A DNA stretch of 64,000 nucleotides from Parvibaculum lavamentivorans DS-1 (lineage in GTDB: Bacteria > Pseudomonadota > Alphaproteobacteria > Parvibaculales > Parvibaculaceae), in assembly GCF_000017565.1 (NCBI RefSeq), contig NC_009719.1:1736001-1800000 (forward strand), written 5' to 3'. Both the position numbers and the translations under genes were made by a program. Positions 19,890 to 35,049 of the stretch are shown one piece after another. Positions within the stretch are counted from its first letter, which is position 1. Every line of letters begins with the position of its first letter. The notes below the pieces were generated by a model. The model was not told the origin of the DNA. It searched no databases and worked only from the letters and a program-made list of their open reading frames with translations.

Positions 19890-19960
19890 ATTTGCCTCGC
19901 TCGCTCAGGTGCCGCTTTGGCGCGGATCATTGGCATTTGACGCTGCGGATGCAAGGGTAT

Positions 19961-20023
19961 TTTGCGGTGCAATATCAAAAGGCCGGGGCCGGAAGGCCGG
20001 AATTCCGCCAGTTATTTGCGGTG
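19961..20023. promoter_or_regulatory. Repeated TTTGCGGTG boxes between ccr and the diiron gene
   Basis: TTTGCGGTG occurs at 19961-19969 and again at 20015-20023. The first copy forms the small palindrome TTGC-GGT-GCAA (19962-19972). Both lie in the 190-nt divergent intergenic region and could bind a regulator of ccr. No named regulator can be assigned. Confidence 0.4.
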
Positions 20024-20079
20024 GCGGGAAGGCAATTGCGGAGTTATACTACGCACATTGCACGGAGGAGGAGAGACCG

Positions 20080-21180
20080 ATGCAGAAAATCAAGGACACC
20101 TATGCATTAGCGCTGGAAGACAGCCACTGGTCCGTACCGCAGAATTTCGATGCGATGTTCAACTGGAACTACGACCCCGAACGCAACGCGATGATGGGCC
20201 TCTATCGCAAGGGCGTCGAGATGCAGTGGGACGCGAACGAGCGTCTCGACTGGTCCCAGGAACTCGACGAAGACAATCCCGAACAATTGCCCGACGAGAT
20301 GCTGCCGATCAACGGCATGGCGCAGTTCGAGAAGATGTCGCGCAAGGAGAAGGCCAATGTGCGCAAGCATTTTCAGGCCTGGCAGCTTTCGCAATTCATG
20401 CAGGGCGAACAGGGTGCGCTGATCTGCACGGCGAAGATCGTCACGCAGGTGCCGGACATGGACTCGAAGTTCTATGCCTCGACGCAGGTGATCGACGAGG
20501 CGCGCCATGTCGAGAGCTACAAGCGGTTGCTCGAAAAATTCCAGCTTGCCTATCCGATGACAAAGCCGCTGCAGGACCTGATCGAGCAGACGCTGCTCGA
20601 TAGCCGCTGGGACATGACCTATCTCGGCATGCAGGTCGTGATCGAGGGGCTGGCGCTCGCGTCCTTCGCGCAGATACGCGACAATGCGCAGAACCCGCTT
20701 GCCGCGGCGGTGAATGCGTATGTGATGCAGGATGAAAGCCGCCATGTCGCTTTCGGGCGCTTGGCGCTGCGCGACTATTATCCGCAGCTCACCGAAAAGG
20801 AACGCGACGAGCGCGAGGAGTTCCTGCTCGAAGCGAGTTACCTCATGCGCGACCGTTTCGACGCGGTCGAGGTTTGGAAAAATCTCGGCCTCGATCCCGT
20901 CGCCTGCGGCGAGCATATGTATAATTCGGGCTTCATGACGAAGTTCCGTTCGTCGCTCTTCCAGCGCATCGTGCCCATCGTCAAGGATGTCGGCCTCTGG
21001 GGCCCGCGCATCCGCAAGGGCTATGAGGAGATGGGCGTCATGGACTACGCCAATCAGGATGTCGATCAGATGCAGTCCGACGACGAAAGCATCGCGCTCG
21101 AGTTCGATGCCCGCCGCCGCCACATCGAGAGCATGGCGGCGCGCGCAAATGGCATGACGGCGACGGCCGCCGCCGACTGA
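20080..21180 (+). CDS. Ferritin-like diiron protein, function unknown
   Basis: A 366-residue helical protein with complete diiron ligands: E110, E140 and H143 in DEARHVESY, E189, and E219 and H222 in DESRHVAFG. This two-ExxH arrangement is that of ribonucleotide reductase R2, AurF-type N-oxygenases and related oxidases. I cannot name the substrate. The start MQKIKDTYA at 20080 has GGAGGAG upstream; the frame is open further upstream, but that stretch lacks coding character. It is divergent from ccr, and a strong terminator follows. Confidence 0.8.
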   Translation: MQKIKDTYALALEDSHWSVPQNFDAMFNWNYDPERNAMMGLYRKGVEMQWDANERLDWSQELDEDNPEQLPDEMLPINGMAQFEKMSRKEKANVRKHFQAWQLSQFMQGEQGALICTAKIVTQVPDMDSKFYASTQVIDEARHVESYKRLLEKFQLAYPMTKPLQDLIEQTLLDSRWDMTYLGMQVVIEGLALASFAQIRDNAQNPLAAAVNAYVMQDESRHVAFGRLALRDYYPQLTEKERDEREEFLLEASYLMRDRFDAVEVWKNLGLDPVACGEHMYNSGFMTKFRSSLFQRIVPIVKDVGLWGPRIRKGYEEMGVMDYANQDVDQMQSDDESIALEFDARRRHIESMAARANGMTATAAAD

Positions 21181-21215
21181 GCGTTAAATTCAGTTGCCGG
21201 CTACCATGTTGCGTG

Positions 21216-21255
21216 AGCGCCGGAACCATCGGGTTGGTTCCGGCGCTTTCGTTTC
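21216..21255 (+). terminator. Rho-independent terminator after the diiron gene
   Basis: Perfect 13-bp arms AGCGCCGGAACCA (21216-21228) and TGGTTCCGGCGCT (21235-21247) with a 6-nt loop, followed by TTCGTTTC. It is placed 35 nt after the diiron gene stop and could also serve the convergent BVMO transcript. Confidence 0.75.
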
Positions 21256-21263
21256 ATGCCGTC

Positions 21264-23084
21264 TCAGCGAAAGGCGAGACCGTCAAACTCTCCCGAGTTT
21301 CGCCAGCCTTCCAGATATTTGAAATAGGCCGTCGCGCCTGCCGGGTAGCCGACATTGTATTTGGCGGCGGGCCCTGCGGCCTTGCCTTCATTGTTGTAGT
21401 AGCCCGGCGTGCAGTCGGGGGAGCCGATCATCCGGCCCATGCCGGTTAGCAGCAGCGCCACCCATTCATCCTGCGCTTCCTTCGTCACTTCGATTTCCTT
21501 CGCGCCCTTCTTCTGTGCGTGGGAAATGATCGCGGCGATGGTCGCGCCCGCTTCGGTGAGATTGTGCGGCACGTTGGAAATGAGGTTCGCGCCTTGCGTC
21601 GGCTGCACGAAGAAGGCATTCGGAAAACCATGAACGTGGATGCCGTGCTTGGTGCGCATGCCCTCCGCCCAGGCTTCCGAGAGTTTCAACCCGTCGCGGC
21701 CCGTCAGGTCGAAGCCCGCGCGGCGCGTCCATTCGGTGCCGACTTCAAAGCCTGACGCATAGATGATGCAATCGACCTCATACTCGACGCCGGCGACGAC
21801 GAAGCCCTTCTCCGTGATCTTCTCGACGCCCTTGCCGTCCGTGTCGATGAGATGCGTGCCGGGCGTGTTGAACGACTGAAGATAAGCGTCGTGGAAGCAG
21901 GGGCGCTTGCAGAGCTGGCGATACCAGGCTTTCAGCTTCTGCGCCGTCTCCTTGTCGGCAACGATCTGATCCACGCGGGAACGGATTTCTTCCATCTTCT
22001 CGAAATCGGAATCCTCGAATGCCGCCATCATGTTTTCGGGCGTCATCTTGTCGCGCGGCAGTTCCATGATCCTGGCGCGGATGCGGCGCGAGAGGTCCGT
22101 CCAGCCGTCCTGCACCAGGTCTTCCTCGACGATGTCGCCGCCCTGGTTGGCGGTGAAATTTTCAAGCCAGCGTTTCTGCCAGCCCGGCGTGGCGATGGAG
22201 GCAAACCATTCGGGATCGAGCGGCTTGTTGGCGCGCACATCGACGGATGAGGGCGTGCGCTGGACGACATAGAGCGTCTTGCATGCCTTGGCGAGGTGCG
22301 GCACGGCCTGAACCGAGGTTGCGCCTGTGCCGATGATGGCGACGCGCTTGTCCGCGAGCTTTTCCATCAGCGCGCCCTTGGGGTCGCCGCCCGTGTAGTT
22401 GTAGTCCCAGCGGCTCGTATGAAACGAGTGGCCCTTGAAGCTCTCGATACCCGGAATGCCCGGCAGTTTCGGTACATGCAGGGGCCCGGTACCCATGCCG
22501 ACATAGTCTGCGGTGAAACGGTCGCCGCGATTTGTTTCGATCACCCAGCGCGATTGGTCCGCATCCCACGTCATGTTCTCGACTTCGGTGTGGAACAGCG
22601 CGTTCTCATAAAGCCCGTATTGTTTTCCGATGCGCTGGCACTGGGCGAGAATTTCCGGCGCGTGGGCGTATTTCTCGCTCGGCATATGGCCGGTTTCTTC
22701 GAGCAGCGGCATGTAGATCAGGGATGCCGTGTCGCATTGCGCGCCGGGATAGCGGTTCCAGTACCAGGTGCCGCCGAAGTCGCCGCCTTTCTCGATGATG
22801 CGCACATCGGTGATGCCCGCTTCATTGAGGCGTGCGCCCGTGACAAGACCGGCAAAGCCGCCGCCCACAAAAGCGAAAGTCACATGATCCGTTTTCGGCT
22901 CGCGTTCGGCGCGCGGCGTGTAGGGATCGTCGAGGTAATGCGCGAGCTGGTCCTTGATCTGGAGATATTGCTCGTTGCCATCGTCCCGCAGGCGCTTGTC
23001 GCGTTCCGCGCGGTAGCGTGCAAGCAGGGCTTCCTTGTCGATGGGCGTGCGGGCGGGCGCGGTGCTCTCGGTCGTCGTGGTCAT
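21264..23084 (-). CDS. Baeyer-Villiger-type flavin monooxygenase
   Basis: FAD/NADPH monooxygenase of 606 residues. The FAD site is GGGFAGL (residues 74-80), the BVMO fingerprint FKGHSFHTSRWDY spans 216-228, and the NADPH site is GTGATS at 252-257. The N-terminal extension RYRAERDKRLRDDGNEQY is seen in the long BVMOs, such as the steroid and cyclopentadecanone monooxygenase group, suggesting a bulky or long-chain ketone substrate. It would convert a ketone to an ester or lactone. It is convergent with the diiron gene. Confidence 0.92.
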   Translation of the reverse strand: MTTTTESTAPARTPIDKEALLARYRAERDKRLRDDGNEQYLQIKDQLAHYLDDPYTPRAEREPKTDHVTFAFVGGGFAGLVTGARLNEAGITDVRIIEKGGDFGGTWYWNRYPGAQCDTASLIYMPLLEETGHMPSEKYAHAPEILAQCQRIGKQYGLYENALFHTEVENMTWDADQSRWVIETNRGDRFTADYVGMGTGPLHVPKLPGIPGIESFKGHSFHTSRWDYNYTGGDPKGALMEKLADKRVAIIGTGATSVQAVPHLAKACKTLYVVQRTPSSVDVRANKPLDPEWFASIATPGWQKRWLENFTANQGGDIVEEDLVQDGWTDLSRRIRARIMELPRDKMTPENMMAAFEDSDFEKMEEIRSRVDQIVADKETAQKLKAWYRQLCKRPCFHDAYLQSFNTPGTHLIDTDGKGVEKITEKGFVVAGVEYEVDCIIYASGFEVGTEWTRRAGFDLTGRDGLKLSEAWAEGMRTKHGIHVHGFPNAFFVQPTQGANLISNVPHNLTEAGATIAAIISHAQKKGAKEIEVTKEAQDEWVALLLTGMGRMIGSPDCTPGYYNNEGKAAGPAAKYNVGYPAGATAYFKYLEGWRNSGEFDGLAFR

Positions 23085-23260: not shown

Positions 23261-24508
23261 TTACCAGAGGCCGTGTTTCTGCACCTCGGCGCGGCCCACC
23301 ACCATGTGATGGACTTCATCCGGACCATCGGCAAAACGCAGGTGGCGCATGTCGGTATACATGTCGGCCAGCGGCGTCCATTGCGAGATGCCGGCGGCGC
23401 CGTGCATCTGGATGGCCTGATCGATGATGAGGCAGACCTTCTCCGGCACCATCGCCTTCACGGCGCTCACATAGACGCGGGCTTCCTTGTTGCCCAGAAC
23501 GTCCATCGCCCTCGCGGCCTGAAGCACGGCGAGACGCATCGCATTGATTTCGATGCGGGCGCGCGAAATGATCTCGAGGTTTCCGCCGAGTTTCGCAATC
23601 GGCTTGCCGAAGGCTTCGCGCGTCGCGGCGCGCTTCACCATCAGTTCCAGCGCCTTCTCCGCCTTGCCGATCGAGCGCATGCAATGATGGATGCGGCCGG
23701 GGCCAAGGCGGACCTGGCTGATCTCGAAGCCGCGGCCCTCGCCGAGCAGGATGTTTTCCTTGGGCACGCGCACATTGTTGAAGCGGATATGCATGTGGCC
23801 GTGGGGCGCGTGGTCCTTGCCGAAGACTTTCATCGGCCCGAGAATTTCGACGCCGGGCGTGTCGATCGGTACGAGGATTTGCGACTGTTGCTTGCTGGGC
23901 GGTGCGTCCGGGCTCGTGCGCACCATTACGATCATGATCTTGCAGCGCGGGTCGCCGGCACCGGAAATATAGAACTTCTCGCCATTGATGACCCAGTCAT
24001 CGCCGTCAAGCACGGCGCTGGTGCGCACGTTCTTGGCGTCGGAGCTCGGCACATCGGGTTCGGTCATCGCATAGGCGGAACGGATTTCGCCGTTGAGGAG
24101 CGGCTCCAGCCACTTCTTCTTCTGCTCCGGCGTGCCGACGCGCTCCAGCACTTCCATGTTGCCCGTGTCGGGCGCGCTGCAATTGAGCGATTCCGATGCG
24201 AGCGGCGATTTGCCGAGTTCGACGGCGATATAGGCGTAGTCGAGATTGGTGAGGCCGGAACCGATTTCGGACTCAGGCAGGAAGAAGTTCCACAAGCCCG
24301 ATTCCTTCGCCTTGTTCTTTGCGCCTTCCAGCAGCTCAAGCTGGCGCGGATGCCAGCTCCAGCGATCGGTCTTTTCGTCCTGGAGGCGGAAGAACTCCTC
24401 CGTGATGGGATCGACGTTTTCGGCGATGTGTTTTTTCACAGCCGCCATCAGAGGCCGCGCCTCTTCCGACATGGCAAGCTGAAACAGGTCTTGATCTAGG
24501 TCTGACAT
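23261..24508 (-). CDS. Acyl-CoA dehydrogenase
   Basis: A 415-residue FAD enzyme introducing the alpha-beta double bond in an acyl-CoA. Visible are AYAMTEPDVPSSDA, NGEKFYISGAGD, FGKDHAPHGHMHI, AFGKPIAKLGG and MHGAAGISQWTPLA. The length and the HHCMRSIGKAEKAL segment recall the ACAD10/11-like group, which acts on long or branched (including 4-hydroxy) acyl chains. The start MSDLDQDLFQ at 24508 is conserved in style; the open frame extending to 25978 lies antisense to ecm and is spurious. It is divergent from ecm. Confidence 0.9.
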   Translation of the reverse strand: MSDLDQDLFQLAMSEEARPLMAAVKKHIAENVDPITEEFFRLQDEKTDRWSWHPRQLELLEGAKNKAKESGLWNFFLPESEIGSGLTNLDYAYIAVELGKSPLASESLNCSAPDTGNMEVLERVGTPEQKKKWLEPLLNGEIRSAYAMTEPDVPSSDAKNVRTSAVLDGDDWVINGEKFYISGAGDPRCKIMIVMVRTSPDAPPSKQQSQILVPIDTPGVEILGPMKVFGKDHAPHGHMHIRFNNVRVPKENILLGEGRGFEISQVRLGPGRIHHCMRSIGKAEKALELMVKRAATREAFGKPIAKLGGNLEIISRARIEINAMRLAVLQAARAMDVLGNKEARVYVSAVKAMVPEKVCLIIDQAIQMHGAAGISQWTPLADMYTDMRHLRFADGPDEVHHMVVGRAEVQKHGLW

Positions 24509-24632
24509 AAATTCTGTCCATTCATGGTGATTCAGTTCTGATCCGCGCAGGGTAGCGCGTTGCGGCGCCCGGCGAAATCTATTGCGGTGTCCGTCATGCC
24601 GTTTGCGGGCCTGCGGCCGCTGCTTGGCTCTT

Positions 24633-24659
24633 TTGCAGCGCAGCAAAGCCTGTGATAAT
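24633..24659 (+). promoter_or_regulatory. Possible promoter for ecm
   Basis: TTTGCA (24632-24637) and GATAAT (24654-24659) with a 16-nt spacer, 35 nt before the ecm start, in the 186-nt divergent region shared with the acyl-CoA dehydrogenase gene. The match is moderate only. Confidence 0.4.
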
Positions 24660-24694
24660 GGCATGACAAAGGTTTGTGGACGCGAGGTAAGGCG

Positions 24695-26698
24695 ATGAGC
24701 GGGAACGGTGGAAACGGCGCGGGCGGTCCGAAAAAGGACCAGCCCTGGATTTTCCGCACCTATGCCGGTCATTCGACGGCCAAGGCCTCGAACGAGCTTT
24801 ACCGGACGAACCTGTCGCGCGGCCAGACGGGCCTCTCGGTCGCCTTCGATCTGCCGACGCAGACGGGCTATGACAGCGATCATGTTCTGGCAAAAGGCGA
24901 GGTCGGCAAGGTCGGTGTGCCGGTCTCCCATATCGGCGACATGCGGGCGCTGTTCGACGGCATTCCCATGGAGCAGATGAACACCTCCATGACGATCAAC
25001 GCGACGGCGGCCTGGCTGCTGGCGCTCTATATCGCCGTCGCCGACGAGCATGGCGCGGACCGCGCGAAGCTTCAGGGCACGGTCCAGAACGATATCATCA
25101 AGGAATATCTCTCGCGCGGCACTTATGTGTTTCCGCCCGCGCCGTCGATGCGGCTGCTGACCGACGTCGTTTCCTACACCTACACGCAGGTGCCGAAGTG
25201 GAACCCCACCAATGTCTGCTCCTACCATCTGCAGGAAGCGGGCGCGACGCCGGTGCAGGAACTTGCCTTTGCGCTGGCGACCGCGCAGGCCGTGCTCGAC
25301 CGGGTGAAGGAAGGCGGGCAGGTGCCGGAAAAGGATTTTCCGCAGGTCGTCGGCCGCATCAGTTTCTTCGTCAATGCGGGCGTGCGCTTCATCACCGAGA
25401 TCGCGAAGATGCGCGCCTTTGTCGATCTCTGGGACGAGATTTGCCGCGACCGCTACGGCGTCGAGGATGCGAAGCTCCGCCGCTTCCGCTATGGCGTGCA
25501 GGTGAATTCGCTCGGCCTCACCGAGCAGCAGCCGGAAAACAACGTCTATCGCATACTGCTCGAAATGCTGGCCGTCACGCTGTCGAAGAATGCGCGTGCC
25601 CGTGCCGTGCAGCTTCCGGCATGGAACGAGGCGCTCGGCCTGCCGCGCCCGTGGGACCAGCAATGGTCGCTCCGCGCACAGCAGATCCTCGCCTATGAAA
25701 GTGACCTTCTCGAATATGGCGACATCTTCGACGGGTCGAAGGTGATGGATGCGAAGGTCGAGGCGCTGAAGGCGGAAGCGCGCGAGGAGCTTGCGCGCAT
25801 CGAGGAGATGGGCGGCGCGGTTGCCGCCGTCGAGAGCGCCTACATGAAAGAGCGCCTCGTCGAATCCAATTCCGCGCGGCTCGAAGAGATCGAAGCCGGG
25901 CGGCAGGTCGTGGTCGGCGTCAACAGATACGAGGAATCGGCGCCGTCGCCGCTCTCCACGGGTGCTGGCTCGATCCATGTGGTCGATGCGGGCGTCGAGG
26001 CGGAGCAGGTCGCGGCGCTGAAGAAGTGGCGCGAAACGCGCGACGCCGCCGCCGTCGAAGCCGCTCTTGCCGATCTTCGGCGCGCGGCGAAGGACGGGCG
26101 CAATATCATGGAGCCTTCGATCGTCTGCGCGAAGGCGGGCGTCACGACCGGCGAGTGGGGCGCGGCGCTGCGCGAGACCTTCGGCGAGTATCGCGCGCCG
26201 ACGGGTGTTTCACGCGCGGCGCGCAATGCACCCGGCGATCTCGATCCCGTGCGGGAGATGGTCAATGCCGTTTCGGCGAAGCTTGGGCGCCGTCTCAAAT
26301 TCCTTGTCGGCAAGCCCGGCCTCGACGGTCATTCCAATGGTGCCGAGCAGATTGCGGTTCGCGCCCGCGACAGCGGCATGGATGTCGTCTATGAGGGCAT
26401 TCGCCTGACGCCGGAACAGATCGTCCAGGCGGCGCTCGATGGCGAGGTCCATGTGGTCGGGCTCTCCATCCTGTCGGGCAGTCACGTGTCGCTGGTGGCG
26501 GATCTGATGGACCGCATGCGCGATGCCGGGCTCGCCAACATACCGGTGATCGTCGGCGGCATCATCCCGCCGGAGGATGAGGAGACGCTCCGCGCCGCCG
26601 GCGTCGCCGCGATCTACACGCCCAAGGATTTCCAGATCAACGACATCATGGCCGATGTGGTCCGCCTCGTGGACTACACCACCGAAGAGGCGGCGTGA
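24695..26698 (+). CDS. ecm: Ethylmalonyl-CoA mutase
   Basis: Adenosylcobalamin enzyme interconverting ethylmalonyl-CoA and methylsuccinyl-CoA. The 667 residues form a single chain. The N-terminal substrate barrel has RTYAGHSTAKASNELYR, GQTGLSVAFDLPTQTGYDSD (blocks), MNTSMTINATA and VQVNSLGLTEQQPENNVYR. The C-terminal cobalamin domain has DGHSNG near residue 543, the DxHxxG lower-ligand motif. Length and several of these blocks match Ecm better than the longer methylmalonyl-CoA mutase. ATG 24695 has GAGGTAAGG upstream. Its cofactor can come from the adenosyltransferase at 9745-10335. Confidence 0.94.
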   Translation: MSGNGGNGAGGPKKDQPWIFRTYAGHSTAKASNELYRTNLSRGQTGLSVAFDLPTQTGYDSDHVLAKGEVGKVGVPVSHIGDMRALFDGIPMEQMNTSMTINATAAWLLALYIAVADEHGADRAKLQGTVQNDIIKEYLSRGTYVFPPAPSMRLLTDVVSYTYTQVPKWNPTNVCSYHLQEAGATPVQELAFALATAQAVLDRVKEGGQVPEKDFPQVVGRISFFVNAGVRFITEIAKMRAFVDLWDEICRDRYGVEDAKLRRFRYGVQVNSLGLTEQQPENNVYRILLEMLAVTLSKNARARAVQLPAWNEALGLPRPWDQQWSLRAQQILAYESDLLEYGDIFDGSKVMDAKVEALKAEAREELARIEEMGGAVAAVESAYMKERLVESNSARLEEIEAGRQVVVGVNRYEESAPSPLSTGAGSIHVVDAGVEAEQVAALKKWRETRDAAAVEAALADLRRAAKDGRNIMEPSIVCAKAGVTTGEWGAALRETFGEYRAPTGVSRAARNAPGDLDPVREMVNAVSAKLGRRLKFLVGKPGLDGHSNGAEQIAVRARDSGMDVVYEGIRLTPEQIVQAALDGEVHVVGLSILSGSHVSLVADLMDRMRDAGLANIPVIVGGIIPPEDEETLRAAGVAAIYTPKDFQINDIMADVVRLVDYTTEEAA

Positions 26699-26758
26699 GC
26701 CTGAGACACACGGATCACATTCTCGCCATATTCCCATAATGTTTCCGCCGCATTGGAG

Positions 26759-26782
26759 TCCTTGAATGAGACAGTTCAAGGA
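26759..26782. repeat. Inverted repeat downstream of ecm
   Basis: TCCTTGAA-N8-TTCAAGGA, perfect 8-bp arms, 60 nt after the ecm stop and 119 nt before the next gene. It could be a weak terminator (TTTGG follows) or an operator for the downstream three-gene operon. Confidence 0.5.
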
Positions 26783-26854
26783 TTTGGCTGGCGGTGTTTC
26801 GATCGGACGTATTGATTTTCTGCGGACTCCGTTCCCGCCGTCACCGATGTTATA

Positions 26855-26871
26855 GTTAACAAGTTGTTAAC
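26855..26871. promoter_or_regulatory. 17-bp palindrome before the three-gene operon
   Basis: GTTAACAA-G-TTGTTAAC, perfect 8-bp arms around a single base, 29 nt upstream of the first ATG of the unknown operon, in an AT-rich patch of GC-rich DNA. It is a good candidate operator. Confidence 0.6.
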
Positions 26872-26900
26872 GCAGGGGTGCGTGGAGAAAGGACCGGCTG

Positions 26901-27194
26901 ATGGGCGACGGTTTCGATACAACGGGGCAGAACGGCAAGGCCGGTCAGGGGCAGGCCCAGACGGCCTGGCATTATGGGCGGAACGGCGAACCTTTGCCGG
27001 AACTCCACATCTTCTCACGGCTCTCCGAGCTCGACGCGGCCTATGCCTCCGAGCTTGCGCGGCGGCGGGCGCGGCAGGAGACGCTCGAACGCGAAATTCT
27101 CGAGCTCGCGAAACGGCTCGCCGCGCCGCTCGAAGGAGCGGCCACGGAAGCGCCGAAGCGCAAGGGCTTCTTCAGCCGGAGGGTGAAGGCATGA
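26901..27194 (+). CDS. Small coiled-coil protein, first gene of an unknown operon
   Basis: A 97-residue hydrophilic protein I do not recognise. The first 35 residues are Gly/Gln-rich and likely disordered. Residues 38-80 (SRLSELDAAYASELARRRAR, then RQETLEREILELAKRL) predict a long coiled coil, followed by a basic C-terminus KRKGFFSRR. Only a short spacer separates it from the upstream palindrome. Its TGA overlaps the ATG of the next gene (ATGA), so the three genes form one translational unit. Confidence 0.75.
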   Translation: MGDGFDTTGQNGKAGQGQAQTAWHYGRNGEPLPELHIFSRLSELDAAYASELARRRARQETLEREILELAKRLAAPLEGAATEAPKRKGFFSRRVKA

Positions 27195-28318
27195 ACGGCC
27201 GGGTCTCTCTCATCTCCGAAGACATGCGGGAGCAGATGACCCGCAATTACGTCGCGAGCGAGCGCGAAGCGCGGTTCGCAAGTTTCCATTTTCTGGCCTT
27301 CCTGATCGTCGGTCTCATCGCGCTCGGCGCGCTGATCGTCGATTACATGATCGTCAGCGAATTCTGGACGCGGGCCCTCGCGAATGAATTCCTGGAATTG
27401 CCGGGCGCGCTCGGCTCCTCCGTTGCCTTCAAGTCGATGCAGGTTCTTTTCGCCACCGTCGCGGCGCATATCCTCTATGAGCAGCTCGGTGCGTTCGGCA
27501 AGGCGGTCTTCGTGCGCATCGTCTTCGTGCTCGCGCTCGCCATGCTGCTCGGCGTCGGCCTTCTGCTGGCGCTGATGTCGCTGCCGAACGGTGTCGCCGC
27601 GACAAGCGACGGCAGCGTCGGCTCGTCGCTCGGCAATGCGCTGGCGGGCCTCGGCATTGCGACCGAGGCGACGCAGGAAACGGCGCGCACCGCCAGCGAG
27701 GTCGACCAGATGCGCGGCTGGCAACCCATGGCCTGGATGGCATCTCTCGGCATCGTCTTCCTCGTCGTCACGGGCGTTGCCGCCCTCTGCATTCATTACG
27801 CCGTGCAGTCGCTTCGCCGCGTCTTCCACGCGCGCGATTTCCGGCACCGCCGCGCGGATATGGAGAAGCTCGCCTCGCTCGAAGCGGAATATGACGGCAA
27901 TCGCCATTCGCTCTCCGAAATGGAAGGCCCCGAGAACCGGCGGCATTTGTTGTGGACCGGGCTCATGCGCGAATGCCGTGGCTATGAGCAGGGGCTCGAT
28001 GAAGCGCGGCGTCAGGGCAACGCGGCTCTCTCGGCACCCTCAGGCGGACGCGGCTTCCTTGGACGCCGCAAGGAGCCCGCACTCGTCAATGGCGCGGCGA
28101 CGCCCTTTTCGGAGCGGATGAAGGCGTGCGAGGAATCGCGGCATCTCGCCCGCTATGAAAAACTGTTCGACGATTGGTGGGAGCGGCGTTCGCGCAACGC
28201 CATGAAGGCAGGCCCCGCGCGCCTCGAAGCGATCCGGGAGCCGGTCGGCGAGTTGTTGCCGCCGCGCGGCTCGCGCCGTATTGCCGGCCAGAACACAAGC
28301 TTTACGGCCGGCGAATGA
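27191..28318 (+). CDS. Multi-pass membrane protein of unknown function
   Basis: 375 residues. Helices are predicted at about 31-55, 82-98 (weaker), 106-132 and 181-208. They are followed by a charged cytoplasmic tail of about 165 residues with a second basic GFLGRRKEP element that echoes the end of the upstream protein (GFFSRR). The segment 134-170 is Ser/Thr/Gly-rich and probably periplasmic. It is coupled by ATGA overlaps to both neighbours. I recognise no family. The layout suggests a membrane scaffold bridging a cytoplasmic coiled coil and an exported VWA-like protein. Confidence 0.78.
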   Translation: MNGRVSLISEDMREQMTRNYVASEREARFASFHFLAFLIVGLIALGALIVDYMIVSEFWTRALANEFLELPGALGSSVAFKSMQVLFATVAAHILYEQLGAFGKAVFVRIVFVLALAMLLGVGLLLALMSLPNGVAATSDGSVGSSLGNALAGLGIATEATQETARTASEVDQMRGWQPMAWMASLGIVFLVVTGVAALCIHYAVQSLRRVFHARDFRHRRADMEKLASLEAEYDGNRHSLSEMEGPENRRHLLWTGLMRECRGYEQGLDEARRQGNAALSAPSGGRGFLGRRKEPALVNGAATPFSERMKACEESRHLARYEKLFDDWWERRSRNAMKAGPARLEAIREPVGELLPPRGSRRIAGQNTSFTAGE

Positions 28319-28998
28319 GGGCGCGTTTGTTTCGGCTTGCCGCGCTCGCCCTGTTCGCATTGGTGCCGATCGTTGCGGGCCCCGCCGCGGCCGTCGATGC
28401 GCCTGCGCGGCCGCAAACCGTGATCGTGGGGCTCGATCTCTCGAAGAGCAATCCGCTCGTCATGGACGCCGCCTATGCCGCGCGTGTCGGCCAGCGCACA
28501 GCCGATGAACTCGATACATTGCCGGTCAGGTCGCGCATCATGCTGCGGACGTTCGGCTCCTACGATTCAAGCGCCAATGCGCTCAAGATCGACGAAGTGA
28601 TCTCGTCCCGCGCCAAGCCGGAGACAGTGGCGGAAGGGATCGGCGCGCTCATCTCGGCGATGCCGAAGCTGGTGGGCGAAGGCAAGCTCAAGGCTCAAGG
28701 CTATACGAATATCGTCTCCTTCCTCGAAACGACCTCGCAGCTTGTCGATTGCGAGGCATCGGATGTGCGGATCATCCTGCTCACCGACGGTTTCGAGGAT
28801 TCCGAATATGCGAAGCTCGCGGGCGGCGGTTCGCTGCCGCGTCCGCAGGCGCTTTATCCGGGCTGCGCCGAGCTGATGATGCTGGGTGTCGGGCAGGGCG
28901 GCGGCAGCCCCACGGTAACGAAGCGTGTGAGCGCGCAGTGGCAAGGCTGGGCGGAGGCCGCGGGCTTCCGGAAATTCACCGGCCTCTATGACTGGTAG
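28315..28998 (+). CDS. Exported VWA-like protein
   Basis: 227 residues with a signal peptide (basic start MRARLFRLAAL, hydrophobic core, cleavage near AAAVDA). The mature part starts with VIVGLDLSKSNPL, a MIDAS-like DxSxS, and later has IILLTDGFEDSEY, which would supply the distal metal-site aspartate. This is the layout of a von Willebrand A domain binding a divalent metal and a partner protein. The tail GWAEAAGFRKFTGLYDW is aromatic. The ATG overlaps the previous stop. Location is expected to be periplasmic; function unknown. Confidence 0.78.
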   Translation: MRARLFRLAALALFALVPIVAGPAAAVDAPARPQTVIVGLDLSKSNPLVMDAAYAARVGQRTADELDTLPVRSRIMLRTFGSYDSSANALKIDEVISSRAKPETVAEGIGALISAMPKLVGEGKLKAQGYTNIVSFLETTSQLVDCEASDVRIILLTDGFEDSEYAKLAGGGSLPRPQALYPGCAELMMLGVGQGGGSPTVTKRVSAQWQGWAEAAGFRKFTGLYDW

Positions 28999-29066
28999 TG
29001 TTTTGACGGCATGAATGGCGGTCTGTAAGGTCCGCCCGCCTTTCACCTGCCTCCCCGGAACACCCG

Positions 29067-30014
29067 ATGAATGTAGCTCTCAGCCTCGTGCTGCCGATCT
29101 TCGGCGTCATCGCCTTCGGCTATTTCGGCGCGCGGACCAGGCTCATCAGTCATGCAGGTGTCGATGGGCTCGACACCTATGTCTTCACCTTCGCCATGCC
29201 GGTGCTGCTGTTCCGCAATCTCGCGGGCACGGAGTTTCCGTCCTCGCTTCCCTGGGGTCTCTGGATTTCCTATTACGGCGCGATGCTCGCCGTCTGGGCG
29301 GCTGGATCGCTGATCGCGCTTTTCATTCTTCGCCGTCCGGCCCCCGATGCGGTGATGCTCGGTTTCGGCTGCGGTCAGGGCAATACGATCATGCTCGGCC
29401 TGCCGATCATTCTCACCGGCTTCGGGCCGGAAGCAGGCACGCCCGTCTTCCTCATTCTCGCTTTCCACGGGATCATTCTCTTCACCATCGCGACCTTTCT
29501 TCTGGAACTGACGCGCACGCGCGAAGGCGAGGAGCGGCCGCGTTTCGGTGCAATCCTGAAAGAAGGCCTGCTGAACACATTGCGCAATCCCGTCATCATC
29601 GGCATTGCCTGCGGTGGTGTTTACGGCCAGCTCGGCGTGCCGCTTCCGGGCATCGTCGACACGACGCTTGAGATGATCGCGCGGTCCGCCATTCCCTGCG
29701 CGCTATTCGTGCTCGGCGCCATGCTCACGCGCTACAGCATCCGCCGTTCGGTCGGCGCCGCCTCCATCACGACCTTCTTCAAGCTCATGGTTCACCCGGC
29801 GCTTGTTTTCGTGATGACGCAATATGTTTTCGAGCTGGAGCCGCTCTGGGTCACGGCGGCGACGCTGCTTGCCGCCACGCCGACCGGGGTCTATTCCTCG
29901 ATCCTCGCCAATCGCTACCGTGCCGCGCCGGGCGCGGCCTCGAGCACGGTTGTGCTTTCGACCGGGCTCAGCCTCGTCACGCTGACATTCCTGCTCGGAT
30001 ATTTCCTCGGCTGA
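29067..30014 (+). CDS. AEC (auxin efflux carrier) family transporter
   Basis: A 315-residue membrane protein with about ten helices in two halves. GFGCGQGNTIMLGLP and the C-terminal ATPTGVYSSILANRYRA match the AEC family, whose bacterial members export organic anions such as malate or malonate. The substrate is not readable. It follows the unknown three-gene operon by 68 nt, so read-through is possible, but I see no functional link. Confidence 0.88.
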   Translation: MNVALSLVLPIFGVIAFGYFGARTRLISHAGVDGLDTYVFTFAMPVLLFRNLAGTEFPSSLPWGLWISYYGAMLAVWAAGSLIALFILRRPAPDAVMLGFGCGQGNTIMLGLPIILTGFGPEAGTPVFLILAFHGIILFTIATFLLELTRTREGEERPRFGAILKEGLLNTLRNPVIIGIACGGVYGQLGVPLPGIVDTTLEMIARSAIPCALFVLGAMLTRYSIRRSVGAASITTFFKLMVHPALVFVMTQYVFELEPLWVTAATLLAATPTGVYSSILANRYRAAPGAASSTVVLSTGLSLVTLTFLLGYFLG

Positions 30015-30016
30015 TC

Positions 30017-31069
30017 TCAGTCGCCGCCCGCTGCCATCACGATGTTCGGCCTGTGCGCGCGGGGTGCGATCAGCCGGAACATGTCCGGGCGGTTGTAGAG
30101 AAAGTCGAAGGGCGTTTTTTCGATCAGTCTGAAGGCAAGGATCGGCGTGGCAACGGCCACGATGACCGAAATCAATGTGATGAGATCGCCATTCTCGAGG
30201 CCGAGCCGGGTCAGCCCGATCCGCATGACCGCCATGGGCAGGAAGAAGGAAAGGAAGATCTGCAGCGAGTGCTGCCCGACATAGGCAAGCGGGCCGGCGA
30301 GGCCGCGATTGGCCAGGAGGCTTACCAGCACGATCGCGCTGCCGGCGCCCGCAAATCCCATCAGCAGCTCGACGGCACGTATATCGACCAGATGCGAGAA
30401 GACGACGGTCGAGACGCAAACGAGCATGAGCATCGCCAGCCCCGCGGCTTTTGCGGGATAGACACGCGCCCAGTCGGCGAGCTGGAAGATCTGCTTCGCC
30501 CCATAGACACCCGTCACGAACCAGATGAAACGCCAGGCAAATTCGTCGAGCAGCATCCAGCCGGTGTCGAGCCGCGTGAAATACAAAGCCAGCGCGAAGA
30601 AGAAAACGAATGCCGGCCGCGCGTCACGCAGAAGCCGCATCGCAACGAAGAACATCGCAAGCGAATAGATGAACCAGAGCACGGCAAAAGGCTGGATCGG
30701 GATCATCAGCAGGTCGACATAGGTGACGTTCCAGGCGCCGCTGTGGGGGATCATCTTGATACCGATCTGGATGACCGACCAGAGAACGTAGAAATAGGCA
30801 AAGTGAACGACTTTTCCGTCGATGAATTTCCGCAGGTCGCCATAAAGCGCCTTGTAGGCGAAGAGGCCGGCGACGAGAAAGAAAAGCGGCATACGGAAGG
30901 GTTTGGCGAATTCCGCGATGGCGCCGAAAATGGCGGGCATTTGGCCAATGGCGTTCGAAACACCGAAGGTCGTGTGTTCCATCACCACCAGAATGATCGT
31001 CAGGCCTTTTACGGCGTCGATCCAGTCGATGCGCTGTTTCGATACAACCGATGTGCTCGCGCCGGTCAT
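30017..31069 (-). CDS. Membrane acyltransferase (acyltransferase-3 / OpgC-like)
   Basis: A 350-residue protein with about ten helices. The opening RIDWIDAVKGLTIILVVMEH, with its active-site histidine, and FRMPLFFLVAGLFA mark the acyltransferase-3 superfamily, which O-acetylates or succinylates envelope glycans. The start at 31069 (MTGASTS) has GGAG at good distance; an ATG seven codons upstream lacks one. It is convergent with the AEC gene with only a 2-nt gap. Confidence 0.87.
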   Translation of the reverse strand: MTGASTSVVSKQRIDWIDAVKGLTIILVVMEHTTFGVSNAIGQMPAIFGAIAEFAKPFRMPLFFLVAGLFAYKALYGDLRKFIDGKVVHFAYFYVLWSVIQIGIKMIPHSGAWNVTYVDLLMIPIQPFAVLWFIYSLAMFFVAMRLLRDARPAFVFFFALALYFTRLDTGWMLLDEFAWRFIWFVTGVYGAKQIFQLADWARVYPAKAAGLAMLMLVCVSTVVFSHLVDIRAVELLMGFAGAGSAIVLVSLLANRGLAGPLAYVGQHSLQIFLSFFLPMAVMRIGLTRLGLENGDLITLISVIVAVATPILAFRLIEKTPFDFLYNRPDMFRLIAPRAHRPNIVMAAGGD

Positions 31070-31180
31070 TTTGGGGCTCCCGAGGCTCAAAAATGCGCGG
31101 TTTCGTTCTCTTCCGAGACGTAACCGCCCTGTCTTGATCTTCAGAAGCAGCTTTTGCGCCAGTTCTCGCAGCCGAAAAGG

Positions 31181-32083
31181 TTAAAGCCCGACCATGCGTC
31201 TTATGTCGGCGGGGCTGTGGCCGGCGGCGCGCAGTTCCCGCAAGCCCATATCTTTGGCGCTTTTTGAAAGACGCCGGCCTTCCTCGTCGCGGATGAGACC
31301 GTGATGGTGATAGCGCGGTTCAGGCAGGTCCAGCAGCACCTGCAGGATGCGGTGGATATAGGTCGCCGGAAAAAGGTCCTGCCCGCGCGTGACCAGCGTG
31401 ACGCCCTGCAGCGCGTCGTCCACCGTCACCGCCAGATGATAGCTGGTGGGTACGTCCTTTCGGGCGATGACCACATCGCCGAAGAGTTCCGGCTTCACCG
31501 GCAGTCTCTTCGGTTCACCCCCGGCACTTTCTCCTTCTTCACGAAAGGTTATGAGTGCTCCCGTCCGCGCCTCGGCAAGCTGCAATGCCTTCGCGATGTC
31601 GAGCCGCCAGGCATAGGTGCGGCCTTCCCACATCAGCTTGTTGAGCTTCGCGCGCGGTATGTCCTTGTAGATACCGGGATAGAGGAGCGCGCCGTCGGGG
31701 TCTCGCGGCCAGTTCTGAAGGGGAACGCCGGAGGCAATGATGGCGTCCTGGATTTCCTTGCGTGTCGCAAAGCAGGGATAGACGACTTCCATATCGCGGA
31801 GGTTTTTCAGCGCCTGCTCATAATCGGCAAAATGCTCGGATTGGCGGCGGACCGGCTGTTCCCAATCGATGCCCAGCCATGCGAGGTCTTCATAGATAGC
31901 GGCTTCGAATTCCGGCCGGCAGCGGCCGGTATCGATATCCTCGATACGGAGCAGGAAGCGGCCGTGCAATGCCGCCGCCATCTCCCACGCAAACAGTGCG
32001 GAATAGGCATGGCCGAGATGCAGCCAGCCATTGGGGCTCGGGGCGAACCGCAATGTCTCCTGCCCGCTTGTCTTCTCCTGCAT
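31181..32083 (-). CDS. gluQ: Glutamyl-Q tRNA(Asp) synthetase
   Basis: Truncated glutamyl-tRNA synthetase paralogue that attaches glutamate to queuosine-34 of tRNA-Asp. The 300 residues have RFAPSPNGWLHLGHAY (HIGH motif), RIEDIDTGRCRPE and the second signature RRLSKS, with no anticodon-binding domain. The zinc site of the E. coli enzyme is eroded: only the first cysteine of the CxC is kept (YPCFATRKE), and YPGIYKD lacks the later one. Loss of this site is seen in other members. Confidence 0.93.
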   Translation of the reverse strand: MQEKTSGQETLRFAPSPNGWLHLGHAYSALFAWEMAAALHGRFLLRIEDIDTGRCRPEFEAAIYEDLAWLGIDWEQPVRRQSEHFADYEQALKNLRDMEVVYPCFATRKEIQDAIIASGVPLQNWPRDPDGALLYPGIYKDIPRAKLNKLMWEGRTYAWRLDIAKALQLAEARTGALITFREEGESAGGEPKRLPVKPELFGDVVIARKDVPTSYHLAVTVDDALQGVTLVTRGQDLFPATYIHRILQVLLDLPEPRYHHHGLIRDEEGRRLSKSAKDMGLRELRAAGHSPADIRRMVGL

Positions 32084-32155
32084 CGAAACCCCGACTAGTG
32101 TGTGGGCGCATTGTTATCCGGCATAGCGCCGTGGCGAAAGAGGAGGCTTCAGACC

Positions 32156-32830
32156 ATGCTTTTGACGGGACCGAGCGTAGCGGCGGCAAGCGGCAAGGCG
32201 AGACAGCTCGTGGTTCTCTGTCACGGCTATGGCTCGGACGGCAATGATCTGATTTCGCTCGCTCCCTATTGGCAGCGTTTGCTGCCCGACGCGGCCTTCA
32301 TAGCGCCCAACGCGCCTGCGCCCTGCGACGGCAATCCGATGGGCTATCAATGGTTTCCGATCTCACGGCTCGATCCTTTGGAAATCGAGCGCGGTGTCGC
32401 CGCCGCCGCGCCGCTTCTCGGCCGCTTCATTGACGAGCAACTGGCGTTGCGCGGACTTGATGGCCGCCACCTTGCTCTGGTGGGCTTCAGCCAAGGCACG
32501 ATGATGGCGCTTCACGTCGGCCTTCGCCGAAGGGTGGCACCCGCCTGCATCGTCGGCTATTCCGGCGCATTGGCCGCCCCTGAACGGCTGGCCGGGGAAG
32601 TCACCTGCCGGCCGCCGGTTCTCATGGTGCATGGCGATCTGGACGATATGCTGCCGGTTTCGCGCATGCATCAGGCGGTTCAGGCGTTGGGGGAAGCGGG
32701 GCTGGCGGTCCAGTGGCATGTTTCGCCGGGCCTCGGCCACAGCATCGACCAGACGGGCCTCGATCTCGGCGGGCGCTTCATTGCGGACGCTTTTGCGGGC
32801 CGGCTTGAGGGTTCGGCCGGGGCAGCATGA
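32156..32830 (+). CDS. Phospholipase/carboxylesterase-family hydrolase
   Basis: An alpha/beta hydrolase of 224 residues. The oxyanion region is LCHGYGSDGND, the nucleophile S112 lies in GFSQGTMMA, the acid near D164 in HGDLDDMLP and the base H195 in GLGHSID. This is the compact PF02230 type, which cleaves short or medium carboxyl esters. The frame opens earlier at 32102, but ATG 32156 starts the fold. Its catalytic serine spacing is normal. It is divergent from gluQ. Confidence 0.9.
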   Translation: MLLTGPSVAAASGKARQLVVLCHGYGSDGNDLISLAPYWQRLLPDAAFIAPNAPAPCDGNPMGYQWFPISRLDPLEIERGVAAAAPLLGRFIDEQLALRGLDGRHLALVGFSQGTMMALHVGLRRRVAPACIVGYSGALAAPERLAGEVTCRPPVLMVHGDLDDMLPVSRMHQAVQALGEAGLAVQWHVSPGLGHSIDQTGLDLGGRFIADAFAGRLEGSAGAA

Positions 32831-32938
32831 GCGCACAACCAGAAGTTGGCAGCTTCACAAACCCGTCGCACCAGATATAGTAAGATCAGGCGTTGTAGAG
32901 GCCTATCGTTTTGAAGCCAATGGCCTCAGGAGGGTGGC

Positions 32939-33499
32939 GTGCACGGAACGTTTGCGGCACCGGATGCTTGTCCGGCTCTTGTGTTGAATGCGGATTACAG
33001 ACCGCTCAGCTATTACCCCTTGTCGCTCTGGTCATGGCAGGACGCGATCAAGGCCGTGTTCCTGGACCGCGTCAACATCGTCTCCTCCTACGAAACGCTC
33101 GTGCGCTCGCCGACTTTCGAGATGCAGTTGCCGAGCGTCGTCTCTCTGAAATCCTATGTGAAGCCGACACGCTTTCCCGCCTTCACCCGCTTCAATCTTT
33201 TCCTGCGCGACCGGTTCACCTGCCAATATTGCAGTGCCCGGCTCGAGCTTACTTTCGATCACGTAATTCCGCGTTCGCGGGGCGGGCAGACAACCTGGGA
33301 AAATGTCGTCACGGCCTGTGCGCCCTGCAATCTGAAAAAAGGCGGCAAGATGCCCGAGCACGCCGCAATGTTTCCGATGCAGGCGCCGTTCCGGCCGACA
33401 GTGGGTGATCTGCACAAGAACGGGCGTGCCTTTCCGCCCAACTATCTGCATGAGAGCTGGCAGGATTATCTCTACTGGGACAGCGAGCTGGAGCCGTAA
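32939..33499 (+). CDS. HNH endonuclease family protein
   Basis: 186 residues starting at GTG after an AGGAGGG-type ribosome binding site. The core FTCQYC ... FDHVIPRSRGG ... NVVTACAPCNLKKGG has two zinc-knuckle CxxC pairs and the HNH histidines. The N-terminal LVLNADYRPLSYYPLSLWSW is shared by a widespread chromosomal family of stand-alone HNH proteins. These are not homing nucleases, and their role, probably in DNA metabolism, is unsettled. Confidence 0.9.
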   Translation: MHGTFAAPDACPALVLNADYRPLSYYPLSLWSWQDAIKAVFLDRVNIVSSYETLVRSPTFEMQLPSVVSLKSYVKPTRFPAFTRFNLFLRDRFTCQYCSARLELTFDHVIPRSRGGQTTWENVVTACAPCNLKKGGKMPEHAAMFPMQAPFRPTVGDLHKNGRAFPPNYLHESWQDYLYWDSELEP

Positions 33500-33505
33500 G
33501 GTCCG

Positions 33506-34087
33506 TCAGACCTTTTCGGAGACCTTGATTGCCAACCGGCAGGCGGCCTTGATCGCGCCGGAGAGAAGCGGATAGGCGGGCGCTTCCTTCGCCCCGGCCT
33601 CGATCGCTTCATCGCGATGCTGCACTTCTTCCAGGCGGAATTTTTCAATCGTGTCGCGAAGCGGCTTTTCTTCCTCGCCCATCTGGTCGAGCCGGTTCAC
33701 CTGAGCCTTGTAGTGTTCGTCGATCACTTCCTCGACCGCGGCCGTGCAGGCATGTGCCGCTTTCTCGCCCAGCAACGCGGTGGCCGCGCCGAGCGCGAAG
33801 CCGGCGACATGCCAGACCGGCGCGAAGGCCGTCGGCCTGACGCCACGCTCATTCACGATCTCGTTGAAGCGCGCGAGGTGAACTTCCTCGTCCTTCGCCA
33901 TCCGGTCGAGCGCGGTGGCGATCTCCTGCTTGTGCGGCAGGTAGCGGAAGACCGCGCGCTGGCCTTCATAGATGCGCACGGCGCCATATTCACCGGCATG
34001 GTCGACGCGGATCATTTCCTCGATGGCGGCGTCACGCGCCCGGCCGGGCTGTGCGGAGACGCGGGGTGCTTTCGGCGTGGCAGACAT
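33506..34087 (-). CDS. coq7: Demethoxyubiquinone hydroxylase (COQ7 family)
   Basis: Diiron hydroxylase of ubiquinone synthesis, 193 residues. Iron ligands are visible in two repeats: HAGEYGAVRIYEGQ with KDEEVHLARF, and EVIDEHYKAQ with EEVQHRDEA. The start codon shares one base with the dsbB-like stop (TGATG). Its presence with the COQ4-like gene at 39508 supports a ubiquinone-based alphaproteobacterium. Confidence 0.95.
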   Translation of the reverse strand: MSATPKAPRVSAQPGRARDAAIEEMIRVDHAGEYGAVRIYEGQRAVFRYLPHKQEIATALDRMAKDEEVHLARFNEIVNERGVRPTAFAPVWHVAGFALGAATALLGEKAAHACTAAVEEVIDEHYKAQVNRLDQMGEEEKPLRDTIEKFRLEEVQHRDEAIEAGAKEAPAYPLLSGAIKAACRLAIKVSEKV

Positions 34088-34617
34088 CAGGCTTCTCCTC
34101 TGCTCTCACGGAGATAGCGCAGCAGGGGCAGCGCGGAAAGGGCGGCGAGTGCCAGAGTGATCAGCATGTTGAAGCCCGCGAGGGAGATGCCAAATACCGA
34201 CCAGGCGGCATCGTCGCAGCGTGGCGGCTTCGCGCCGCCGTTGAGGGCCGATTGCAGGTCTTCGAGCGAGTTCGAAACAAGTCCTCCGGCGCCGCAGGTA
34301 TCGGGCCCCGGCCACCATTTGTATTCGACGCCCACGTGATAGAAGGAGAGGCCCGCTCCCGCCAGATAGGCCAATAGACAAAGGCCGAGAAAGACGAGAA
34401 CGCCGATCCCTATATTGGCCTCCCGCGAGAGGATGCCCGCGATCAGCGCCGCGCCTATCGCGAAATAGTGTGGCAGACGGCCCTGAAGGCAGAGCGAGCA
34501 GGGCACGTAGCCAAGGACATGCTCGAAGAAAAGCGCGCCAGCGAGGGTGGCGACACTTACGGCAATCAGGATCCAGGGAATGGCGTTGGAGGGGATGCGT
34601 TCCGTCATGACCGGCAT
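34087..34617 (-). CDS. Disulfide bond formation protein B
   Basis: Four-helix inner-membrane quinone reductase that reoxidises periplasmic DsbA, 176 residues. The first periplasmic pair is CSLC (followed by LQGRLPHY), and the second pair falls in DTCGAGG and RCDDAAW. There are two in-frame ATGs, 34617 and 34608, and neither has a clear ribosome binding site. It overlaps coq7 by one base, and both use ubiquinone chemistry. Confidence 0.9.
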   Translation of the reverse strand: MPVMTERIPSNAIPWILIAVSVATLAGALFFEHVLGYVPCSLCLQGRLPHYFAIGAALIAGILSREANIGIGVLVFLGLCLLAYLAGAGLSFYHVGVEYKWWPGPDTCGAGGLVSNSLEDLQSALNGGAKPPRCDDAAWSVFGISLAGFNMLITLALAALSALPLLRYLRESRGEA

Positions 34618-34726
34618 TCAAGCACGGGTCCCGGCCCTTGTCCCGTGCCTTGTCGCCGCATATCGGGTCCGCCTTCTTTTCGATTGAAGGTGCGGGCCAG
34701 CCCATTATGATGCGCCCGCGCTCAGG

Positions 34727-34812
34727 GCCCCTGTGGCGGAATGGTAGACGCGGCAGACTCAAAATCTGTTGTTGGCAACAACGTGCTGGTTCGAGTCCGG
34801 CCAGGGGCACCA
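34727..34812 (+). tRNA. tRNA-Leu (anticodon CAA)
   Basis: An 86-nt class II tRNA. Acceptor arms GCCCCTG / CAGGGGC pair perfectly, the discriminator is A and CCA is encoded. The anticodon loop CTCAAAA gives CAA, reading UUG. A variable-arm hairpin TTGTTGGCAACAA and the T loop GGTTCGAGTCC are present. Confidence 0.97.
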
Positions 34813-34875
34813 AATCCTTTCGAATGGCTCGAGCCTGGGCTCGCCACTCTTCCGCCCCCTCCGGATTTATCCCCG

Positions 34876-34922
34876 CCCCCTCCTGCCGCATTCCACCCGG
34901 TTTGGCAGGAGAGGGTCTTTTT
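34876..34922 (+). terminator. Terminator after tRNA-Leu
   Basis: CTCCTGCC (34880-34887) pairs with GGCAGGAG (34904-34911), extendable by CCC/GGG, and TTTTT follows at 34918-34922. It is placed 64 nt after the tRNA end. Confidence 0.65.
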
Positions 34923-35049
34923 GCTGGATAAGTTTCCGTGAAAGAAACTTGTCCCCGGTTTTCGCCGCAGGGCGGGGCGGTCCGGCGGGCCGGCTTCGGG
35001 CGGGGCCTATCCCCGAAATATCATCTGTACACGGATGGAAGCGTGTTTG

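Follow-up and report, generated by a model that had tools for sequence, protein, structure and literature searches.

A three-gene set of Parvibaculum lavamentivorans DS-1 encoding a membrane protein and an apparently exported VWA protein

The window analysed here, a stretch of 64,000 nucleotides from the soil and water bacterium Parvibaculum lavamentivorans DS-1, contains at positions 26901 to 28998 a set of three genes, named here genes 1, 2 and 3. Direct reading of the sequence confirmed both the three frames and the two ATGA overlaps joining them (gene 1/gene 2 and gene 2/gene 3) that had been described in an original prediction made from the DNA letters. The set is flanked by a methylmalonyl-CoA-mutase-type gene (24674-26698) and an AEC-type transporter gene (29067-30014), both recognized in a Pfam scan. 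The earlier description of the set as an unfamiliar system also stood: homology to a named system was sought in four family libraries (Pfam, NCBIfam, PHROGs and PADLOC), and no product of genes 1 to 3 reached a cut-off in any of them. The genes and the elements discussed within them are as follows:

26901-27194, forward strand: gene 1, 97 amino acids; putative detached cytoplasmic N-terminal domain of the gene 2 membrane protein, by profile matches in family f121
27191-28318, forward strand: gene 2, 375 amino acids; inner-membrane protein, probably with four helices and a cytoplasmic C-terminal tail; ATGA overlap at each end
28315-28998, forward strand: gene 3, 227 amino acids; apparently exported VWA protein, predicted fold
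27165-27182, forward strand: GFFSRR basic-aromatic motif near the C terminus of gene 1
27341-27421, forward strand: predicted periplasmic hairpin between helices 1 and 2 of gene 2, residues 51 to 77 (D51, E57, W59 and E66); putative dock for the VWA metal
28052-28069, forward strand: GFLGRR motif in the cytoplasmic tail of gene 2
28435-28449, forward strand: first motif of the metal ion-dependent adhesion site (MIDAS) of gene 3, D41-x-S43-x-S45
28705-28707 and 28786-28788, forward strand: MIDAS-completing residues T131 and D158 of gene 3

All three genes were present in each of the 46 loci read from the window's own family, which had been chosen for holding the VWA gene and among which there are 33 distinct upstream regions. 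Thus, the three frames are real genes, and the trio is co-inherited. Nor is it confined to this strain: a search with the VWA alignment found the gene in 21 of 385 Alphaproteobacteria genomes, the window's own included, distributed over eight families. Within the order of the source organism, it was carried by 33 of 40 genomes (24 of the 27 good assemblies); across the phylum, 398 sampled genomes gave a single match, in the window's own genome. The regions of the 20 other carrier genomes were fetched and searched with hidden Markov models, and in 19 of them a gene 2 homologue directly precedes a VWA gene; the twentieth (L074) is truncated by a contig end and therefore lacks gene 2. This search also recovered two genes overlooked by gene picking, the VWA gene of L033 and gene 2 of L061. 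A separate search for gene 2 matched 18 of 289 genomes of the class, including one weak match (L019 in G060, E value of 3e-4) that has no VWA neighbour and was discounted and kept out of the counts.

The predicted structure of gene 3 (pLDDT of 80) identified it, as far as a model can, as a true VWA protein with the Rossmann-like VWA fold. The top Foldseek row belonged to a parvovirus B19 capsid entry (one chain; E value of 3e-6), followed by the VWA domains of CLCA1 (8e-6) and of the Cav1.1 alpha2delta subunit (2e-5), with TM-scores near 0.4 to 0.5. A second structure aligner (VIA) gave Z scores of 11 to 12, up to 12.3, against VWA-fold proteins such as INTS14, Ku80, Rpn10, ArnB and alpha2delta, and the matches among viral models were mostly ordinary VWA proteins. 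At the sequence level, the family lies outside the curated VWA models: no Pfam VWA model matched any of 28 VWA rows (window included) at an E value of 0.5, and the window protein had no NCBIfam match up to an E value of 1. Its profile found only weak matches among solved structures, namely TRAP (E value of 0.011) and, over the whole domain, the VWA domain of RGLG1 (E value of 0.2). Matches to ribosomal protein S12e and to glucansucrases were taken as chance.

The DxSxS and TDGFED sites pointed out in the original prediction both turned out to be part of a complete MIDAS. D41, S43, S45, T131 and D158 were all present in 35 of 35 rows of the profile alignment (window included) and in 28 of 28 rows of a first alignment, and by its sequence the protein very likely carries a divalent metal. 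Equally invariant in the 35 rows are C146 and C184 (the first alignment had placed one cysteine a column off in 2 of its 28 rows, which the profile alignment joined to the rest). Since these cysteines precede two strands that are adjacent in VWA sheets, a disulfide between them is plausible, and a DsbB gene is present in the neighbourhood. Asp-Trp forms the very C terminus in 35 of 35 rows (28990-28995 in the window), which suggests that the end itself may be recognized. For its part, the N terminus, read by eye, resembles a signal peptide. Of the exported VWA-like protein initially described, therefore, the predicted fold and the MIDAS held, and export remains apparent.

Gene 2 had been described as a membrane protein with a cytoplasmic tail, in agreement with the results of a hydropathy scan and with the distribution of charges. 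Among 36 gene 2 rows, 17 showed four helices (these include 13 of the 17 rows that come from families other than the window's), 18 showed three, and one cut fragment showed two. In the window's gene 2, three helices exceed the hydropathy cut, and the fourth, which is the second in order, was seen only in relatives; we read the three-helix rows as having a weak second helix that falls below the cut. The protein would probably have four membrane helices and two periplasmic loops, with both ends in the cytoplasm, a reading that fits the positive charges. In an alignment of 20 rows, every one has D51, W59, K81, Q84 and H93, and at least 90% have E57 and E66. The 20 rows (window included) gave no convincing Pfam match and none to a transporter or channel family, and a profile search of solved structures returned nothing. 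A weak match to an unnamed PHROG (E value of 0.011) was rejected.

The original prediction had treated gene 1 as a coiled-coil partner in its own right. A profile built from 33 separate gene 1 proteins, excluding fused ones, matched the N terminus of the gene 2 homologue in all three genomes of family f121 (54, 39 and 38 bits), the match lying there within one open frame. The best of 50 shuffle sets reached 9.1 bits and the best reversed sequence 2.3 bits. The single window protein sufficed to match the same homologues (40, 34 and 33 bits), and with profiles that included the fused proteins, the f121 scores rose to 97 to 104 bits; those of family f123 were 10.3 and 8.6 bits (best shuffle, 6.1; best reversed, 7.2), a resemblance that is not decisive. 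In all the other families read, 87 to 223 residues precede the first membrane helix of gene 2, taking longest-frame starts, compared with 30 to 44 residues in the window's family, where the frame begins at the end of gene 1. The simplest reading of these sequences is that the gene 1 domain was split off from gene 2 in the window's family. Since gene 1 would then be the detached N-terminal cytoplasmic domain of gene 2, the module would consist of two proteins rather than of three independent partners; the gene set first described is real, and its division into three partners was not upheld. A weak model match of gene 1 to an Rz-like spanin (E value of 0.013) was rejected.

The similar GFLGRR-like element noted in both genes proved to be well founded. 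Of 33 distinct gene 1 ends, 15 have the motif, defined as G[FLW][FLW][GSA][RKM][RKG] once the sequences had been viewed, as do 17 of 33 gene 2 tails, and 12 cases have it in both; these frequencies are far above those in shuffled sequences (0.05% and 0.26%, respectively).

The genes also behaved as a unit in loss and in duplication. G753, a genome of the genus Parvibaculum that is 100% complete, has no VWA gene; its mutase gene (C8:41836-43806) and transporter gene (C8:43847-44782) are both intact, and only 31 bp separate the stop of the former from the start of the latter. No trace of gene 1, 2 or 3 was found in the 6-kb stretch around this site (L116, C8:41500-47500), to which the search for genes 1 and 2 was restricted. 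This is a clean loss of the trio as a unit. G745 and G755 also lack the VWA gene, but neither offers an empty site to read, since the mutase site of G745 is rearranged and G755 has only a 39% mutase relative. In family f91, G202 carries two tandem membrane-VWA pairs (L068, 902-4667), and G294 carries one pair followed by a second gene 2 that is cut (L073, 1-2738; a second VWA fragment on contig C329 was left out); these tandem pairs are a duplication of the unit. In family f4 (L060, L067 and L072), one to three copies of a gene of about 620 amino acids lie between the mutase gene and the membrane gene, and one fragment of this gene resembles TPR repeats.

Two perfect palindromes had been reported upstream of gene 1. 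Both exist, as follows:

26759-26782, no strand assigned: inverted repeat with 8-bp perfect arms and an 8-bp loop; probably incidental, not kept in aligned relatives
26856-26870, forward strand: CtrA-like box TTAACAAGTTGTTAA (TTAA-N7-TTAA), 31 to 45 bp 5' of the gene 1 start

As palindromes they are near chance, because repeats with 8-bp arms and a loop of up to 10 form 30 clusters in the 64 kb, approximately one per 2.1 kb. The first is best regarded as a chance repeat and the second is better read as a CtrA-type box; a motif of the TTAA-N7-TTAA type is given as the CtrA consensus in PMC9437464. The pattern has no other match in the window, where 0.08 matches would be expected; among 100 shuffled windows, 8 contained one. 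Genome-wide, TTAAN7TTAAC gave 17 rows, corresponding by our count to 13 distinct places, and the reversed pattern gave 5 rows. Eleven stretches covering the remaining 12 places were read, and ten proteins encoded nearby were scanned. Some of these boxes lie at a Flp pilus cluster (CpaB) or ahead of genes for FlgI, a SPOR-domain protein and a PAS histidine kinase, which are the kinds of gene that CtrA would be expected to target. Further boxes lie at genes for a DUF2336 protein, YebC, an ammonium transporter and triosephosphate isomerase, genes without a CtrA link familiar to us; another is 1.6 kb from a response regulator gene, and the genes at two more were not identified. Just 5' of the PAS histidine kinase gene there are two CtrA-like boxes, approximately 57 bp apart (G000:C1:1032223 and 1032280, L080).

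Within the window's family, the N7 box was found in 11 of the 33 distinct upstream regions (window included) and an N6 form in 3 more. When TTAA pairs with spacings of 0 to 19 were counted in these regions, 11 had N7, 3 had N6 and 1 had N3, and AATT pairs, used as a control, occurred in 4 regions. In the other families, one site with a single mismatch was detected (L061, family f5). The genome has a DUF1153 gene (144 bits), which among 14 control genomes only Caulobacter has, and which we take to encode SciP. The promoter scan found none, and the terminator scan found one terminator, on the opposite strand. Rfam models gave only transfer RNA over positions 24000 to 35000.

Taken together, these data are compatible with the locus encoding one complex of the inner membrane and periplasm that would serve as a scaffold or landmark across the envelope, with the metal site of the VWA protein docking on the periplasmic hairpin of gene 2; we give this reading as a whole roughly an even chance. 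Gene 2 would be the anchor, probably with four membrane helices, two periplasmic loops and both termini in the cytoplasm. Gene 1 would be its N-terminal cytoplasmic domain, produced in this family as a chain of its own, which probably rejoins gene 2, since the two are fused in family f121. Gene 3, exported and of predicted VWA fold, would hold a divalent metal in its MIDAS. In other VWA-ligand pairs, an acidic residue of the ligand completes the metal site; here that residue could be D51, E57 or E66 of the hairpin, or it might belong to another ligand in the envelope. An exported metal-binding protein of integrin-like fold would thus probably grip the membrane protein, the periplasmic VWA domain may sense or grip an envelope component, and the helical regions on the cytoplasmic side, which bear the basic-aromatic motifs, may retain a client there. 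For part of Parvibaculum, the CtrA circuit, which governs pili, flagella and the cell cycle, seems to be linked to expression of the set.

Several observations weigh against this reading. The AlphaFold model of gene 2 is poor (pLDDT of 58), and a Foldseek comparison of it with the Protein Data Bank gave no match at an E value of 0.001 or better (best, near 1). That D51, E57 and E66 are conserved in the aligned sequences is no proof of their binding the VWA metal. Outside f121, the likeness to gene 1 is weak, with 8.3 and 6.3 bits in f123 and 12.2 bits in one f91 fragment, compared with 9.1 bits for the best shuffle. No neighbouring gene suggests a client, and no phenotype data for the gene set were found. 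As for the CtrA link, 19 of the 33 family upstream regions have neither the N7 nor the N6 form, 17 upstream stretches of 15 loci from other families contain no exact box (the true starts being uncertain there), and a distance of only 31 to 45 bp from the start codon is unusual for an activator site, so that CtrA could as well repress the genes as activate them. Because the box is missing in those 19 regions and in the other families, CtrA control cannot be the core of the function, and the box is a feature of part of the genus and not of the module.

In a bolder version, which we consider quite unlikely, the locus would encode a new kind of alphaproteobacterial envelope machine, in which a periplasmic VWA metal switch opens, closes or positions a four-helix core with charged helix residues, the cytoplasmic arm having been split off and placed under CtrA control in one lineage.

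The alternative that survives best, although an unlikely one, is that gene 2 is a channel, a transporter or another ion-coupled core, with the VWA protein as its periplasmic regulatory subunit. The VWA domains of alpha2delta and CLCA1 act on ion channels, and both are among the best Foldseek matches of gene 3; these matches, however, reflect the common fold. D51, K81, Q84 and H93, invariant in the 20 rows, are located within predicted membrane helices or at their borders, and the second helix is only weakly hydrophobic (1.5 to 1.9 in 16 of the 17 four-helix rows), as might suit such a core. Yet none of the 20 gene 2 members convincingly matches a transporter or channel family, and the model of gene 2 is too weak to reveal a pore.

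A MIDAS-containing VWA protein beside a membrane protein would likewise suit a maturation factor for an exported or membrane metalloenzyme, comparable to the MoxR-adjacent VWA proteins NorD, MxaC/MxaL and BatA, and the nearby DsbB gene and the invariant cysteine pair are in line with it. We consider this decidedly improbable: no MoxR ATPase was found among the genes scanned at 18.6 to 34.6 kb of the window (the neighbours in other families were clustered and not all identified), and no enzyme gene adjoins the pair in all families.

The genes upstream of the set include those of the ethylmalonyl-CoA pathway. Clustering of the genes of 34 neighbourhoods by single linkage, with clusters named from the window members and some neighbourhoods short or cut by contig ends, placed GluQRS in 31; the mutase, Coq7 and HNH clusters in 24 each; the DsbB cluster and that of the acyl-CoA dehydrogenase (the latter named from its resemblance to the window gene) in 18 each; and that of crotonyl-CoA reductase in 14. 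The neighbourhood is an old chromosomal synteny. That the trio is an accessory of this pathway could be argued from the frequency of the mutase (24/34) and the reductase (14/34) and from the presence of the reductase, above the cut-off, in 15 of the 21 carriers compared with 120 of the 385 genomes of the class. However, every carrier from families f121, f123 and f137, six genomes in total (of which one has a completeness of only 83%), keeps the pair without the reductase; on this ground, the link was set aside. In addition, gene 3 looks exported and the pathway is cytoplasmic, and G753 retains the mutase without the trio, so that an accessory role is very improbable. Hardly any credence can be given to the set being cargo of a mobile element, conjugation or defence, for which nothing speaks beyond its patchiness (21/385): genes 2 and 3 were unmatched in plasmid and phage records (where gene 1 was not searched) and gene 3 in viral contigs, PADLOC and PHROGs gave no convincing family, and the chromosomal neighbours are kept across families.

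Two further observations concern the neighbouring genes. Between the crotonyl-CoA reductase and acyl-CoA dehydrogenase genes (19909-23084), the window contains genes for an AurF-like oxygenase and a protein resembling flavin-dependent monooxygenases, and between GluQRS and Coq7 (32939-33499) there is a small HNH endonuclease gene.

To return to the trans-envelope complex, little is understood of bacterial MIDAS proteins that are exported and have a dedicated membrane partner, and no description of this gene set was found in the open-licence literature. The module is nearly constant in one family, is found in seven further families of the class and is unmatched in four family libraries. Nature has provided a fusion, a clean deletion and a tandem duplication, each of which is a direct handle on the binding partners. 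If the metal site does dock on the hairpin, the module would be a minimal model of integrin-like metal docking across the bacterial envelope.

Among known systems, the bacterial MoxR/VWA chaperones (NorQ/NorD, RavA/ViaA, MxaC/MxaL and BatA) include VWA proteins with a MIDAS, like gene 3. In the Cav alpha2delta subunit and CLCA1, an extracellular MIDAS-containing VWA domain stands beside a multipass membrane protein, and this domain is the structural match to gene 3; these proteins are, however, eukaryotic, large and multidomain, and only the VWA fold is held in common. The closest working parallel, by analogy, would be McaA, a magnetosome protein of Magnetospirillum magneticum AMB-1. McaA is one chain with a single transmembrane segment and a tail, whereas in the loci read here the VWA protein and the multihelix anchor are separate frames; since the chain architecture differs and the two were likened by description, without sequence comparison, membership of the McaA family is not claimed. 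McaA is likewise alphaproteobacterial and combines a signal peptide, a periplasmic VWA domain with an intact MIDAS, a membrane anchor and a cytoplasmic part that positions a client, and it needs the MIDAS for both its localization and its function (PMC9512821).

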